The notes under the pieces: generated by a model | What the model was told of the DNA's origin: nothing | The model's input: the letters and a program-made list of their open reading frames with translations, nothing else | Databases searched by the model: none | Assembly (NCBI RefSeq): GCF_030813915.1 | Contig: NZ_JAUSUJ010000038.1 | Span: 1 to 44,622 of the forward strand | Length of the DNA: 44,622 bases | From: Rhodoplanes tepidamans | Lineage (GTDB): Bacteria; Pseudomonadota; Alphaproteobacteria; Rhizobiales; Xanthobacteraceae | Reading direction: 5' to 3' | Program-made: the position numbers and the translations under genes | Shown here: piece by piece, positions 5,824-41,205 of the stretch | How the letters are laid out: each line of letters opens with the position of its first letter | Numbering within the stretch: the first letter of the stretch is position 1

Positions 5824-6699
5824 TCAGCCGCCGCGCACCGGCGGCATCGACAGCCGGTCGCGCCGGCAGGCGCGGCGGTCGACCTCGGGGCAGGCCCGGA
5901 AGCCGAGCTCGCGGGTGAGGCAGATGCGCACCTCGGTCAGCCGGTTACGGTTGCAGGCGACCGCGACGGCCTCGCGGTCGAGGCCCGGATTGGCCTTGAC
6001 GAAGGCCTCCTCCACCTCGTCCGGGGTGACCAGCAGGGTTCTCTCCGGCTCCAGATAGGCGTCCGGGATCTTCACCACGGCGCGCGCCTTGCGCACCGCC
6101 TCGAAGTAGCCGCGCGCGCCGAGCCCCGAGCAGATGCCGTGCTTGTCCCACTGGTTGAAGACGAGCCGCGGGCTGGGCATCAGGTCGAGCATCCCCGACA
6201 CGATCTCGCGATTGAGCCGCGGCGCCGGCACCTGGCAGTATTCCGGAAAGCCGCGCTCGTATTGCGGCCACAGCCCGTGCACGACGAACGAGAAGGGCCG
6301 CTCGCCGCACTGCGGGTCGGGCCGGCCCTCGCTCTCGCGGCCGACACGCCGCTCCGCCGCCGCCTCGCAGTACGACGGCGACCACGACAGGGCGAGGACG
6401 TAGAAGTCGAACTGGCCCGGCTCGTTCTGGCGGCGGTCCTGGCCGGCCGTCTGGCCGGCCACGGGCCCGGACTGGTCGGCCATCGGGCCGGCCGTCGGGC
6501 CGGACTGGGCGGCGGCCGGGCCGGCCGCGAAGAGCCCGCCGCCGACCATCCCGACGCCCGCCACCCCGACGCCCGCCGTTCCGACGCCCACCACCAGCGC
6601 CATCGCCGCCACTGACGTCACGGCCACTGACGTCACGACGGACGTGACGAACGACCTCACCGCGGCCGCCGCCGCGACCCGACTCTCGCGCGTGATCAT
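5824..6699 (-). CDS. Exported ribonuclease T2 family protein
   Basis: RNase T2 enzymes cleave single-stranded RNA through a 2',3'-cyclic phosphate in the periplasm or outside the cell. This 291-residue protein has a long hydrophobic leader (to about residue 64, ending AAGPAAAQ) and a repetitive linker (65-90). The CAS I motif is VVHGLWPQ with His141. The CAS II motif reads NQWDKHG with His187, whereas the family norm is HEWxKHG, so the catalytic Glu is Gln. Six or more Cys suggest disulfides. I used the ATG at 6699, which gives a compact n-region; an upstream GTG start is possible. A good promoter with an SOS-type box lies 55-86 bases upstream. Confidence 0.88.
   Translation of the reverse strand: MITRESRVAAAAAVRSFVTSVVTSVAVTSVAAMALVVGVGTAGVGVAGVGMVGGGLFAAGPAAAQSGPTAGPMADQSGPVAGQTAGQDRRQNEPGQFDFYVLALSWSPSYCEAAAERRVGRESEGRPDPQCGERPFSFVVHGLWPQYERGFPEYCQVPAPRLNREIVSGMLDLMPSPRLVFNQWDKHGICSGLGARGYFEAVRKARAVVKIPDAYLEPERTLLVTPDEVEEAFVKANPGLDREAVAVACNRNRLTEVRICLTRELGFRACPEVDRRACRRDRLSMPPVRGG
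6551..6637. repeat. Two 15-bp tandem repeats inside the RNase T2 leader peptide
   Basis: Three units of CCGACGCCC(G/A)CCNNN start at 6551, 6566 and 6581 and encode the VGVAG/VGTAG repeats. A separate exact duplication of GCCACTGACGTCACG occupies 6608-6622 and 6623-6637 and encodes VTSVA twice. Both keep frame and lie in the hydrophobic export leader. Confidence 0.85.
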
Positions 6700-6753
6700 G
6701 ATCCGCCCCGTTTCCCGCACGCACACTCTTTCAGCACGACGGAAGCCACGACC

Positions 6754-6785
6754 ACAATACCAGAGTTGCAGAACATTTCAAGAAC
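6754..6785 (-). promoter_or_regulatory. RNase T2 promoter overlapped by an SOS-type GAAC-N7-GAAC box
   Basis: On the plus strand GAACATTTCAAGAAC (6771-6785) is a perfect direct repeat of the alphaproteobacterial LexA type. Read on the minus strand it contains TTGAAA (-35), followed after 16 bases by TATTGT (-10, at 6754-6759). The predicted transcription start is about 50 bases before the RNase T2 ATG. LexA binding is inferred from the consensus. Confidence 0.55.
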
Positions 6786-15713: not shown

Positions 15714-16532
15714 CTAGGAAGCGATCCGGCGACGCCCCGGCGCGACCGCCGCGGCCTGTACGGCGTCGACCACCTGGACGGCCTCGACGGTCCCGGCGAC
15801 CGCGACGGCCTCGGCGGCCGTGAGGGCGTCGGCGGCCGTGAGGGCCGCCGGCACGCCGCCGCAGACCGCCCGCACCGGGGCGAAGGAGCGGCGGTGGTGC
15901 GGGGTGGCGCCGAGCGTCGCCAGGGCGCGCTGGTGCTCCGGCACGCCGTAGCCCATGTGGCGCTCGAAGCCGTAGCCGGGATGGGCGGCGCCGACCCGCT
16001 CCATCAGCCGGTCGCGCGTCACCTTGGCGACGATCGAGGCGGCCGCGATCGACAGCACCAGGGCGTCGCCCGACACCACGGCCTCGCAGTCGCAGGCGAC
16101 GTCGATGCGGTCGCAGCCGTCGACGAAGACCAGCCGGGGCGCCACCGGCAGCGCCCGAACCGCGCGCGAGAGCGCCCACAGCGAGGCCTTGCGGATGTTG
16201 TCGCGGTCGATGCGGGCCGGCGACGCCATCGCGACGCCGACCTCGGCGACGGCGCAGATGCGCTCGAACAGCACGGCGCGGCGCTCCGCCGTCAGCTTCT
16301 TGGAGTCGTCGAGCCCGCGCGGGATGCGCTTCGGGTCGAGGATCACGGCGGCGGCCACCACCGGGCCGGCGAGCGGGCCGCGCCCGGCCTCGTCGCAGCC
16401 GGCGACCGGCCACAGGCCACGCCGGTGGGCGCGGCGCTCACGCTCGAAGGTCGGCCGCACCGGCTCCTCGACGAGCGGCAGGCGCGGCGTGGCGGCAGGA
16501 GCGGCGGAACGGGGCTCGGCGCGGCGACTCAT
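15714..16532 (-). CDS. rnhB: Ribonuclease HII
   Basis: RNase HII removes ribonucleotides from DNA and RNA primers from RNA-DNA hybrids. The 272-residue protein has the motif [16 protein letters not shown] with Asp47 and Glu48, VFVDG with Asp138, and Asp174 in VTRDRLM, completing the DEDD active site. [11 protein letters not shown] and [18 protein letters not shown] are further family blocks. The usual core ends near residue 220. The final ~50 residues form an Ala/Val-rich low-complexity tail ([16 protein letters not shown] and on) encoded by 18-bp repeats, not present in typical homologues. In many Rhizobiales rnhB lies next to ccrM; here about 10.6 kb separates them. Confidence 0.95.
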
Positions 16533-17242: not shown

Positions 17243-17680
17243 TCAACCGGCGAAGACGACCCGCCCGTCCGCCGAGACGGCCAGCCCCGGCGCGGTGACG
17301 ACCTCCCACAGATGGCCGTCGGGATCGGCGAAATAGCCCGACCAGCCGCCGTAATGGGTCTCGACGGCGGGCTTCACCCGGGTGCCGCCGCAGGCGAGCG
17401 CATGCGACAGGGCGGCGTCGACCTCCTCGCGGGTGTTGCAGTTCCAGGCCAGCGTCGTGCCGCGAAAGCCGGCCGGCCGCGGCGTCACCGAGACGCCGGC
17501 GTCATCCGCCAGCGCCTCCCACGGATAGAGCGCCAGGACGCTGCCGCCGGTGGCGAAGAACGCCACCGCCTCGCCGGTCTCCGGCATGTGGCGCGCGAAG
17601 CCGAGCGCCGTGTAGAAGGCGATGCTGGCGCGCATGTCGGACACGCCGAGCGTGATCACGGTGAGGCGGGCGGACGGCAT
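17243..17680 (-). CDS. VOC (glyoxalase/bleomycin resistance) superfamily protein
   Basis: This 145-residue single-chain protein has two beta-alpha-beta-beta-beta modules. LTVITLGVSDMRASIAFYTALGF is the classical first strand and helix. GGSVLALYPW and GYFADPDGHLWEV provide the strand positions where metal ligands usually lie; Glu in HLWEV is the typical last ligand, while the first module shows no clear His ligand. It may therefore be a binding protein or an isomerase-type enzyme. The ATG at 17680 lies 30 bases after the radical SAM stop, so the two genes are probably co-transcribed, which would put it under the same SOS-type promoter. Confidence 0.85.
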   Translation of the reverse strand: MPSARLTVITLGVSDMRASIAFYTALGFARHMPETGEAVAFFATGGSVLALYPWEALADDAGVSVTPRPAGFRGTTLAWNCNTREEVDAALSHALACGGTRVKPAVETHYGGWSGYFADPDGHLWEVVTAPGLAVSADGRVVFAG

Positions 17681-17709: not shown

Positions 17710-18879
17710 TCAGAACAGCTCGAGCTGCGCCGACGGCTTCGGCGGCGGCACGAAATGCTCGACGGTGAGCGCGGTGCGGCGGAGATTGAGGCCGAGCCGG
17801 TCGCAGGCCTTCTCGAAGCGGCGGCCGAGCATCCAGGCATAGGGGCCGGAGCCGCTCATCCGCTCGCCGAACCGCGCGTCGTAGTCCTTGCCGCCGCGCA
17901 TCTGGCGGATCAGCGTGAAGACGTGGCGCTCGCGGTCGGGGAAATGCGTGACCAGCCATTCGCGGAACAGGTCGCGCACCTCGAGCGGCAGCCGCAGCAG
18001 CACGTAGCCGGCGCTCTCGACGCCCGCCGCCGCGGCGGCGTCGAGGATGCGCTCGATCTCGGCGTCGTTGATGGCCGGCACCACCGGCGCCACCATCACG
18101 GTCGTCGGCACGCCCGCCTCGGCGAGGCCGCGCAGCGCCGCGAGCCGGCGCGACGGCGTCGGCGCCCGCGGCTCCATCAGCCGCGACAGCTTTGCATCCA
18201 GCGTCGTGACCGACAGGCCGACGCGCACCAGCTTTCGGTCGGCCATCCGGGACAGGATGTCGAGGTCTCGCAGGATCAGGTCCGACTTGGTGACGATGCC
18301 GACCGGGTGGCCGGCCTTCTCCAGCACCTCCAGGATGCGCCGCATCAGGCCGGTCTTGCGCTCGATGGGCTGATAGGGATCCGTGTTGGTGCCGATCGCG
18401 ATCGTCTTCGGCACGTAGCCCTTGGCGGCGAGCTCGCGTGCCAGCAGCTCCGGCGCGTCCGGCTTCACGAACAGCTTCGATTCGAAGTCGAGGCCGGGCG
18501 ACAGGCCCAGATAGGCGTGGGTCGGCCGGGCGAAGCAGTAGACGCAGCCGTGCTCGCAGCCGCGATACGGGTTGATCGACCGGTCGAACGGAATGTCGGG
18601 CGACTCGTTGCGGGTGATCACCTTGCGGGCCGTGTCGGTGGTCACCGTGGTGGTGAACGGCGGCAGGTCCTCGAGGCTCTGCCAGCCGTCGTCGAAGGCG
18701 ACGCGGGCGAGCGGCTCGAACCGGCCGGTCGCGTTGGAGACGGCGCCGCGGCCGCGCCGGCGGTCCGGCGCGACGGCATGATGGGCGTAGGGGGCGGCCT
18801 CGCCGACCGCCCGCGGCTCGAGGCGGGCGTCGATGCGGGCCGGATCCGGCAGGCGTCGGAAGGCGGGGGCTGCGCTCAT
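17710..18879 (-). CDS. PA0069-family radical SAM protein, spore-photoproduct-lyase-like, with a clamp-binding-like C-terminus
   Basis: This 389-residue radical SAM enzyme has the CxxxCxxC cluster motif GCEHGCVYC (Cys108, Cys112, Cys115). The preceding RGRGAVSNATGRFE and SINPYRG blocks mark the PA0069/Rv2578c family, distantly related to spore photoproduct lyase (SplB). YVPKTIAIGTNTDPYQPIE and SVTTLDAKLSRLMEPRAPTPSRRL form the SAM barrel. The last five residues are QLELF, close to the QL(S/D)LF consensus that binds the DNA sliding clamp. The promoter at 18887-18919 holds a perfect SOS-type box and a -10 so close to the ATG that the mRNA may be leaderless. A role in DNA repair is inferred; the family has no established reaction that I know of. 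Confidence 0.9.
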   Translation of the reverse strand: MSAAPAFRRLPDPARIDARLEPRAVGEAAPYAHHAVAPDRRRGRGAVSNATGRFEPLARVAFDDGWQSLEDLPPFTTTVTTDTARKVITRNESPDIPFDRSINPYRGCEHGCVYCFARPTHAYLGLSPGLDFESKLFVKPDAPELLARELAAKGYVPKTIAIGTNTDPYQPIERKTGLMRRILEVLEKAGHPVGIVTKSDLILRDLDILSRMADRKLVRVGLSVTTLDAKLSRLMEPRAPTPSRRLAALRGLAEAGVPTTVMVAPVVPAINDAEIERILDAAAAAGVESAGYVLLRLPLEVRDLFREWLVTHFPDRERHVFTLIRQMRGGKDYDARFGERMSGSGPYAWMLGRRFEKACDRLGLNLRRTALTVEHFVPPPKPSAQLELF

Positions 18880-18886
18880 GCCCAGG

Positions 18887-18919
18887 ACTATAGGCGCAGA
18901 ACGTGAACATAACAAGAAC
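18887..18919 (-). promoter_or_regulatory. SOS-type promoter of the radical SAM gene
   Basis: GAACATAACAAGAAC (plus strand 18905-18919) is a perfect GAAC-N7-GAAC direct repeat, the alphaproteobacterial LexA-box form. On the minus strand it contains TTGTTA (-35); after exactly 17 bases comes TATAGT (-10, at 18887-18892). The -10 ends 7 bases before the ATG at 18879, so transcription should begin at or next to the start codon. Confidence 0.7.
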
Positions 18920-40107: not shown

Positions 40108-41205
40108 ATGCACGACCTCCTCTACCGCCTCGCCTGGCCGGCCCTGAAGCGGCTCGATCCCGAGCAGGTGCACCGGCTCGCCGTGGTGTCGCTCAAGCGC
40201 GGGCTGATGCGCCCGACCGCCGCGGCCGACGACCCGATCCTCGCCACCCGCGTGTTCGGCCTCGACTTCGCCAACCCGATCGGCCTCGGCGCCGGCTTCG
40301 ACAAGCACGCCGAGGTGATCGACGCGATGTTCGGCTTCGGCTTCGGCTTCGTCGAGGCCGGAACCGTGACGCCGAAGCCGCAGCCCGGCAATTCCGGCCA
40401 GCGCCTGTTCCGGCTCGACGAGGACGAGGCGGTGATCAACCGCTTCGGCTTCAACAGCGAGGGGCTGGAGCCGTTCGTCGAACGGCTGAAGGCGCGGCGC
40501 GCGAAGGGCGCGCGCGGCGGCATCGTCGGCGCCAACATCGGCAAGAACCGCAGCACCGAGGACGCCGCCGCCGACTACGAGACCTGCATCGCCGCGGTGG
40601 CGCCGCTGGTCGACTACGTGGTCGTCAACGTCTCCTCGCCCAACACGCCGGGCCTGCGCGGGCTGCAGGCGCGGGCGCCCATCGAGGCGCTGGTCGGCCG
40701 CGTGCTCGCCGCGCGCGACCGCGTCGGCGCGGCCGGGGCCGAACCCGCGCCGAAGCGGCCGCCGATCCTGCTCAAGGTCGGGCCCGATCTCGACGAGGAC
40801 CAGGTGCGCGACATCGCCGAGGTGGTTCTCGACACCGGCGTCGACGGCCTGATCGTCGGCAACACCACGGTGACGCGGCCGCCCACCCTGCGCAGCCGCT
40901 GGCGCGACGCCGAGGGCGGGCTCTCGGGCCGGCCCCTGATGGGGCTGGCGACCGAGTGCCTGCGCTCGATGTACCGCCACACCCAGGGCCGGGTGCCGAT
41001 CATCGGCTGCGGCGGCGTGTCGAGCGGCGAGGACGCCTACGTGAAGATCCGCGCCGGCGCCTCGCTGGTGCAGCTCTACTCGGCGCTGGTCTACAACGGC
41101 CCGGGCTTCGCCGTGACCATCAAGCGCGACCTCGCCGCCCTGCTCCGCCGCGACGGCTTTGCGACCATCGCTGCCGCCGTGGGCGCGGATCACCGGCCCC
41201 TGTGA
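40108..41205 (+). CDS. pyrD: Dihydroorotate dehydrogenase (quinone), class 2
   Basis: PyrD oxidises dihydroorotate to orotate in pyrimidine synthesis, passing electrons to membrane quinone. The 365-residue protein has the membrane-associating helix MHDLLYRLAWPALKRLDPEQVHRL, the FMN-binding NPIGLGAGFDKHAEVIDAM, the class 2 catalytic Ser in VNVSSPNTPGLRGLQ, Lys in LLKVGPDL, VGNTTVTRP and the phosphate-binding GCGGVSSGEDAYVKIRAGASLVQLYSALVYNGPG. The length matches class 2 enzymes. The ATG lies 6 bases after the CoxG-like stop, so the two are co-transcribed; pyrD is commonly linked to such short genes in this order. Its 3' end converges on the GT2 gene. Confidence 0.97.
   Translation: MHDLLYRLAWPALKRLDPEQVHRLAVVSLKRGLMRPTAAADDPILATRVFGLDFANPIGLGAGFDKHAEVIDAMFGFGFGFVEAGTVTPKPQPGNSGQRLFRLDEDEAVINRFGFNSEGLEPFVERLKARRAKGARGGIVGANIGKNRSTEDAAADYETCIAAVAPLVDYVVVNVSSPNTPGLRGLQARAPIEALVGRVLAARDRVGAAGAEPAPKRPPILLKVGPDLDEDQVRDIAEVVLDTGVDGLIVGNTTVTRPPTLRSRWRDAEGGLSGRPLMGLATECLRSMYRHTQGRVPIIGCGGVSSGEDAYVKIRAGASLVQLYSALVYNGPGFAVTIKRDLAALLRRDGFATIAAAVGADHRPL

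Follow-up and report, generated by a model that had tools for sequence, protein, structure and literature searches.

The window, by which we mean the whole stretch of 44,622 nucleotides of Rhodoplanes tepidamans DNA analysed here, encodes a radical SAM protein of the PA0069 family whose gene carries a LexA-type box over its promoter and whose product ends in a motif of the type that binds the beta clamp. The membership of this family, the promoter layout, the presence in relatives of LexA boxes that match the class of the organism, the near-universal C-terminal motif, the cluster ligands and the absence of a fourth invariant cysteine are all shown by the data. We think that the best explanation, and a likely one, is that the protein is a radical SAM enzyme of DNA repair, induced by the SOS response and brought to the beta clamp, bearing in mind that its control by LexA, its binding to the clamp and its role in repair are each inferred. 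SOS control of the gene had already been predicted; what appears to be new, within the open-licence literature that we searched, is the conserved clamp-type tail and the fact that it is common to a second SOS-boxed family.

The gene, its promoter and the boxes of its relatives

The gene lies at positions 17710 to 18879 of the window, on the minus strand and with the stop codon included, and codes for 389 amino acids. In a profile search the protein matches the model NF033668 (rSAM_PA0069) with 553.2 bits (E 2e-166, cut-off 360) over positions 1 to 348 of 348, the last one included, and is therefore a full-length member of the PA0069 family; Pfam Radical_SAM matches it with 75.9 bits. NF033668 is typed as a hypoth_equivalog, and its one-line description mentions neither a reaction, nor a LexA box, nor a clamp motif. 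The sequence-only reading, an earlier note on this window made without database searches, had placed the protein in this family and stated that it ends exactly in QLELF, and both claims held. Of 299 genomes sampled throughout the phylum, 111 have a match above the family cut-off, and within the same taxonomic family a homologue is present in 58 of 61 genomes. One relative (G027) harbours two PA0069 paralogues, L073 and L092, about 0.39 Mb apart, both of which have kept the box and end in a motif of the clamp type (QLSLF; QMEMF).

The sole promoter-like site between positions 17650 and 19050 is TTGTTA-17-TATAGT on the minus strand, with the -35 hexamer at 18910 to 18915 and the -10 hexamer at 18887 to 18892, 7 bases from the ATG at 18879. 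The -35 hexamer is inside the LexA-type box, which spans positions 18905 to 18919 (GAACATAACAAGAAC, GAAC-N7-GAAC on the plus strand) and reads GTTC-N7-GTTC on the minus strand, that of the gene (GTTCTTGTTATGTTC). The sequence-only reading had described the perfect repeat over the -35 hexamer, the 17-base spacer and the 7 bases between the -10 hexamer and the start codon, all of which held. The leaderless-looking layout that it had noticed turns out to be conserved in only about half of the boxed alphaproteobacterial loci and not in the rest, the distance from box to ATG being 23 to 25 bases in 98 of 193 (42 + 32 + 24). Its estimate that about one box or fewer should occur by chance per window was also correct (0.74 expected), yet taken on its own the box carries little weight: the window contains four exact boxes, a number reached in 2 of 100 shuffles, and the 6.86-Mb genome contains 94 exact boxes of the GAAC-N7-GAAC type. 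For this reason we reject rarity as an argument, and consider that the box is significant because it is conserved across relatives, not because it is rare. Another of the exact boxes, with an AT-rich spacer (GAACATTTCAAGAAC, positions 6771 to 6785), stands 44 bases ahead of an open frame on the minus strand (5824 to 6726) that matches ribonuclease T2.

Conservation was assessed in two sets of loci. The close-relative set comprises 139 loci, 59 from the same family and the best 80 of 586 named loci, mostly Hyphomicrobiales (a few of the named loci share a genome with family loci); the phylum set consists of the loci read from 110 of the 111 genomes over the cut-off (30 + 80 loci), which brings the total to 249 loci and 240 unique proteins. 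For the comparison of classes, boxes were counted over the 400 bases preceding the conserved domain. Among the close relatives GTTC-N7-GTTC is present upstream in 137 of 139 loci, the two exceptions being L087, which has no upstream sequence, and L044, which keeps 7 of the 8 fixed bases. Across all alphaproteobacterial loci this box is found in 193 of 202 and CTGT-N8-ACAG, which is the E. coli-type LexA box, in none of the 202. Elsewhere in the phylum, outside the Alphaproteobacteria, it is the E. coli-type box that is found (29 of 38 loci), and the alphaproteobacterial one is absent (0 of 38). Fifty shuffles gave the alphaproteobacterial box in 1.5 loci on average and 4 at most of 202, and the E. 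coli-type box in at most 1 of 38, while altered spacings of 6, 8 and 10 bases were met in 3, 5 and 6 of the 202 alphaproteobacterial loci, respectively. As examples, the Sinorhizobium meliloti locus has the box GTTCTTGATTTGTTC and the end QLSLL, and in Aeromonas caviae, a gammaproteobacterium, the gene is preceded by CTGTATATATAAACAG and its product ends in QLRLF. These loci are related to each other, so that the counts do not represent independent events. Because the type of box tracks the class of the organism, the copying of a single ancestral promoter does not explain the pattern, which we regard as strong evidence of selection on LexA control.

The exact expected box is missing within 400 bases in nine of the 202 alphaproteobacterial loci and nine of the 38 others, from which we conclude that SOS control, although frequent in the family, does not extend to all of its members. 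Among the nine alphaproteobacterial loci, a box is present at a greater distance in L125 and L222, L087 lacks upstream sequence as said above, L044, L214, L212, L213 and L216 retain 7 of the 8 fixed bases, and L228 has neither. Among the nine others, L260 carries TTAGTAATAATACTAA, which we take to be the Xanthomonas LexA form, and no LexA box of the forms tried was found at the remaining eight (L258, L262, L267, L271, L272, L280, L284 and L285). These eight keep a QxxLF-type end in the absence of a recognisable box, so tail and box can separate. The sequence-only reading would have been refuted by relatives lacking both box and tail; the opposite is observed, with boxes at 193 of 202 alphaproteobacterial loci and, as detailed below, tails in 234 of 239 proteins. 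Its inference of LexA control and clamp binding is thus supported by the relatives, induction and binding themselves remaining inferred. In our opinion, repression by LexA and induction by damage are very likely, even in the absence of expression or LexA-binding data.

The same genome contains a lexA match (G000:C19:39922-40623, minus strand, 179 bits for a cut-off of 111), itself preceded about 75 bases upstream by a box of the same form as that of the radical SAM gene (GAACACATATCGAAC, at 40698 to 40712). We inspected the genes adjoining 18 selected box loci, picked mostly for their AT-rich spacers, and found boxes upstream of recA (26 bases), uvrA (108 bases), imuA (14 bases; this match is below the cut-off of its model), ssb (some 240 bases from the matched start) and a comM-type gene, which together cover much of the SOS set expected in an alphaproteobacterium. 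The other boxes inspected precede genes without a known SOS role. Two further boxes deserve a mention in their own right: at G000:C35:48803-48828 (L093) two GAAC-N7-GAAC boxes overlap and have a GAAC in common, with no clear downstream gene identified at that locus, and at L012 (G000:C2:273267) an AT-rich LexA-type box is located 20 bases ahead of a DNA cytosine methyltransferase gene (TIGR00675).

The neighbouring genes are less informative, and we claim no functional link, by operon partnership, with either of the two considered here. A glyoxalase-type (VOC) gene (17243 to 17680) begins 29 bases past the stop codon of the radical SAM gene and may therefore be on the same transcript; a VOC homologue is near the radical SAM gene in only 16 of 80 named loci. 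An RNase HII gene (15714 to 16532) is on the same strand, and a homologue of it is present in the flanking sequence retrieved for 71 of the 80 named loci.

The C-terminal tail and its recurrence in other radical SAM families

The last five residues of the window protein, QLELF (residues 385 to 389; codons at 17713 to 17727, minus strand), correspond closely to the bacterial clamp motif, given in the literature as QL(S/D)LF (PMC9690074). QLELF itself is a rare variant, present in 2 of 201 alphaproteobacterial rows; what is conserved is the pattern. In the alignment the glutamine at position 385 is invariant (239/239), a leucine stands at position 388 in 235 proteins, an F or an L at position 389 in 232 of 238, and Qxx[LM][FLIMW] fits 234 of the 239 proteins. 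The five that do not fit end in QLSFF, QMALDL (two proteins), QMGLDF (one protein) and QLTLPG. Among the close-relative loci Q[LM]x[LM][FLMI] is found within the last 14 residues in 137 of 139; the two loci off the strict end are L165, which has QLSFF, and L147, in which a longer tail comes after QLNLF. In 195 of the 239 proteins nothing follows the motif, and the other 44 carry 1 to 24 additional residues (with the exception of L235, whose frame is still open where its locus stops, after 50 residues), indicating that the motif need not be at a free end.

The segment just before the motif (residues 377 to 384; codons at 17728 to 17751, minus strand) is a variable linker: over the 239 aligned proteins, seven of its eight columns have an entropy of 2.05 to 3.61 bits against a mean of 1.15 for the core, the remaining one, P379, being at 0.81. 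An AlphaFold model built on an alignment of the window protein with 51 relatives (mean pLDDT 72, pTM 0.72, with low confidence at residues 108 to 133, the cluster loop) has no secondary structure past residue 362, and pLDDT falls below 50 at residues 386 to 389. Taken together, the tail looks like a motif of the clamp-binding type in an accessible segment, conserved amid varying surroundings, the binding itself being an inference. A terminal motif alone is no proof of clamp binding, and docking on the beta clamp, for which we have no binding data, can only be called likely.

One could argue that the terminal QxxLF packs on the core of the enzyme itself, or serves a partner other than the clamp. 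In favour of this idea, F376 and P379, upstream of the motif, are conserved too, so that the tail may make other contacts. However, the motif follows a variable linker, is predicted with very low confidence, is not always terminal (44 of 239 extend beyond it), exists in both five- and six-residue forms and is met again in a radical SAM family other than PA0069, all of which makes this alternative unlikely in our view.

Docking on the clamp remains our preferred reading, and the recurrence in a separate family deserves to be described. When the genome was searched for terminal QLxLF at the codon level (CTN leucine codons and TAA or TGA stops only), three ends were found in 6.86 Mb: the PA0069 gene, another radical SAM gene with a box (QLSLF) and a UvrD-type helicase gene (QLDLF). 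The helicase (UvrD/Rep-type, G000:C7:180691, L308) has its frame cut by the end of the locus, and its promoter is outside the view.

The second radical SAM protein (G000:C5:176892-178170, L026) belongs to rSAM_link_UDG (TIGR03916; 509 bits, cut-off 343.5), a family different from PA0069. Its gene has a LexA-type box 13 bases ahead of the ATG, its product ends in QLSLF, and the open frame just after it reads like a uracil-DNA glycosylase, judging from the translation only. The pairing of box and tail pointed out by the sequence-only reading is therefore not unique to the PA0069 gene. The rSAM_link_UDG family exceeds its cut-off in 7 of 115 genomes of the class and 56 of 249 of the phylum, and we read the 36 best-scoring loci. 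The alphaproteobacterial box is present in 32 of 32 alphaproteobacterial loci (L303 and 31 others whose end can be read), and a clamp-type end in 31 of these 31, 25 of them in the five-residue form and 6 in a six-residue-like form (four of these six are QLGFGF, a looser fit). The four non-alphaproteobacterial loci all have the end, and only one of them has the E. coli-type box.

The Rv2578c family (NF038135), separate from PA0069 by cut-off, may be a third case: four of four actinobacterial loci end in QxxL[FL], and GAAC-N4-GTTC is upstream in two of the four. This sample is limited to four loci, one of which (L339) is just under the family cut-off as translated and another (L354) unscanned. 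A relative from Gemmatimonadota (L355) ends in QLSLGI, off the pattern.

Spore photoproduct lyase and the nature of the substrate

The sequence-only reading had called the protein distantly related to spore photoproduct lyase (SPL), and this is only partly correct, since the relationship concerns the fold, at a modest level, and the invariant cysteines are cluster ligands only. In a structure search with the model, the closest solved chain is the spore photoproduct lyase 4fhf (E 1.2e-6, TM 0.43/0.48), with SkfB, NifB, SuiB and lipoyl synthase, radical SAM enzymes with other substrates, close behind; the match to SPL is thus weak, and rests on a predicted structure. By sequence, whether a single sequence or a profile is used, no meaningful relative of solved structure was found. 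The best rows of the sequence search, fibronectin and globin sensor fragments, we take as chance matches, and the profile search of solved structures also returned SkfB and NifB as weak, partial matches. In the search against family models, none of those for SPL matches the window protein at E 0.001 or better, and a profile-profile comparison with five SPL-family (TIGR03886) proteins gave a probability of 33 percent (E 0.00045).

The only cysteines invariant across the 239 PA0069 proteins are C108, C112 and C115 of the CxxxCxxC motif (codons at 18535 to 18558, minus strand), the expected ligands of a [4Fe-4S] cluster and each present in 239 of 239; there is no fourth invariant cysteine of the SPL kind among these proteins. 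We compared by eye the window protein with L351, an SPL-like protein from a related genus whose genome also contains a PA0069 gene. L351 reads ASCYTDPLGIE where the window protein has IGTNTDPYQPIE (over a longer stretch, EASCYTDPLGIE and AIGTNTDPYQPIE, respectively), and two residues ahead of the shared TDP there is a cysteine in L351 and a threonine, T164, in the window protein. The catalytic hydrogen donor of SPL is a cysteine, and by this comparison a threonine takes its place in the window protein. As a control we took five genomes of a single genus that contain a PA0069 gene as well as SPL relatives, eight of the latter in all (5 pass the TIGR03886 cut-off and 3 fall below it): the alphaproteobacterial box was found in none of the eight (about 460 bases read) and a clamp-type end in none of the eight, indicating that box and tail are not general to SPL relatives.

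These results bear on a first rival hypothesis, according to which the protein is an SplB-type enzyme that reverses UV thymine lesions as spore photoproduct lyase does, an assumption made in a 2012 comparative study. It has in its favour that the closest solved fold is that of SPL, and that the same kind of gene was named splB and tied to photoreactivation (PMC3323433). We nevertheless consider it unlikely: only the three cluster cysteines are invariant, threonine 164 stands (by eye) where the cysteine should be, the eight SPL relatives from genomes with a PA0069 gene have neither box nor tail, and no SPL model matches at E 0.001 or better. PA0069 proteins probably use a chemistry other than that of spore photoproduct lyase, a conclusion inferred from sequence alone.

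Another possibility is that the enzyme is indeed SOS-induced and uses the clamp for location only, its substrate being an RNA, a peptide or a molecule of the nucleotide pool. The other radical SAM folds matched (SkfB, NifB, SuiB and lipoyl synthase) do act on substrates of other kinds, which is compatible with this scenario. On the other hand, the LexA-type boxes in most relatives and the replisome-type tail point to DNA, and the second family with box and tail adjoins a uracil-DNA glycosylase-like frame and was named for that link. We think that this hypothesis is unlikely too, and that a DNA repair enzyme remains the better reading, even if DNA as the substrate is unproven.

Earlier reports, a possible mechanism and known clamp-binding proteins

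The SOS part of this scenario is not new. SOS control of 'splB' was predicted in alpha- and betaproteobacteria in 2012 and interpreted as photoreactivation (PMC3323433), so that the SOS reading is supported but had already been in print. It is very likely that this 'splB' is the same gene as the one studied here, because each listed alphaproteobacterial genome over the cut-off has one NF033668 match and because LexA sites of two kinds were reported in the two classes; the identity is only inferred, since five genomes of one genus hold SPL-family genes as well. Other reports point in the same direction: SplB (COG1533) is under SOS control in a number of species, and an operon COG1573-COG4277 (we take COG4277 to be the rSAM_link_UDG family) was placed in the SOS network of Bacteroidetes (PMC8565304); the core SOS regulon of Gram-positive bacteria includes a radical SAM protein (PMC7739468); and SplB-like proteins adjoin SOS genes (PMC3765255). 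The passages cited here from these three papers mention no clamp motif. A 'radical SAM protein' of Streptomyces venezuelae, whose family we did not check, is tabled among LexA-bound, mitomycin-responsive genes (PMC9380542), and PA0069 itself reportedly belongs to the LexA regulon of Pseudomonas aeruginosa (Cirz and colleagues 2006). Elsewhere PA0069 is mentioned in a tetO-PA0069 strain construct and as a microarray probe in an overlap table beside PA0669 and PA0670, the latter of which mentions we do not count as evidence. We found no paper linking a radical SAM protein to the sliding clamp in the open-licence literature searched, and an earlier report in a subscription journal is possible.

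We propose the following mechanism. LexA would normally sit over the -35 region and keep the gene repressed; upon DNA damage LexA would be inactivated, and RNA polymerase would make an mRNA starting at or near the ATG. The C-terminal tail of the protein, a putative flexible linker followed by a QLxLF-type beta-clamp-binding motif, would then hold the enzyme on DnaN at replication forks or at the gaps left behind them, where a SAM-derived radical would reverse or alter a damaged base, the reaction itself being unidentified. Of these steps, the action on damage within gapped or recently replicated DNA is the one that we call plausible. On a bolder reading, PA0069, rSAM_link_UDG and perhaps Rv2578c would form a clamp-tethered SOS branch that reverses or remodels lesions at forks or in post-replication gaps, a view that we find as easy to doubt as to defend at present.

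If the proposal is true, iron-sulphur radical enzymes would share the docking site of the beta clamp with translesion polymerases. A family with no reaction named in its model, and previously read as a photolyase, gains a probable time of action (after damage, in most lineages examined) and a probable place (the replication clamp), and an orphan enzyme becomes open to direct tests. That box and tail occur together in a second family suggests in addition a shared recruitment of radical enzymes to DNA repair.

How does this system compare with those already known? With spore photoproduct lyase (4fhf), its best solved-fold match, the PA0069 protein has in common the radical SAM CxxxCxxC cluster, but the TM-scores remain low and an equivalent of the catalytic cysteine is lacking. 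As for the 'splB' of the 2012 study, it was read as a photolyase, whereas PA0069 proteins have no fourth invariant cysteine, and its authors did not see the regulation in gammaproteobacteria, whereas the Aeromonas caviae gene has a box. The closest parallels for the tail are in our opinion UmuC, Pol II and RecB, in which clamp binding was measured, whereas that of the PA0069 tail is inferred. The motifs of UmuC and Pol II are QLNLF and QLGLF, with a glutamine described as highly conserved (PMC3716654), and both of these sequences occur within the PA0069 family; that of RecB was mapped to the six-residue QVEMEF (PMC13254535), which the exceptional PA0069 ends QMALDL and QMGLDF resemble. All three proteins serve repair or damage tolerance, and their motifs follow the same grammar, conserved glutamine included, as the tail of PA0069.
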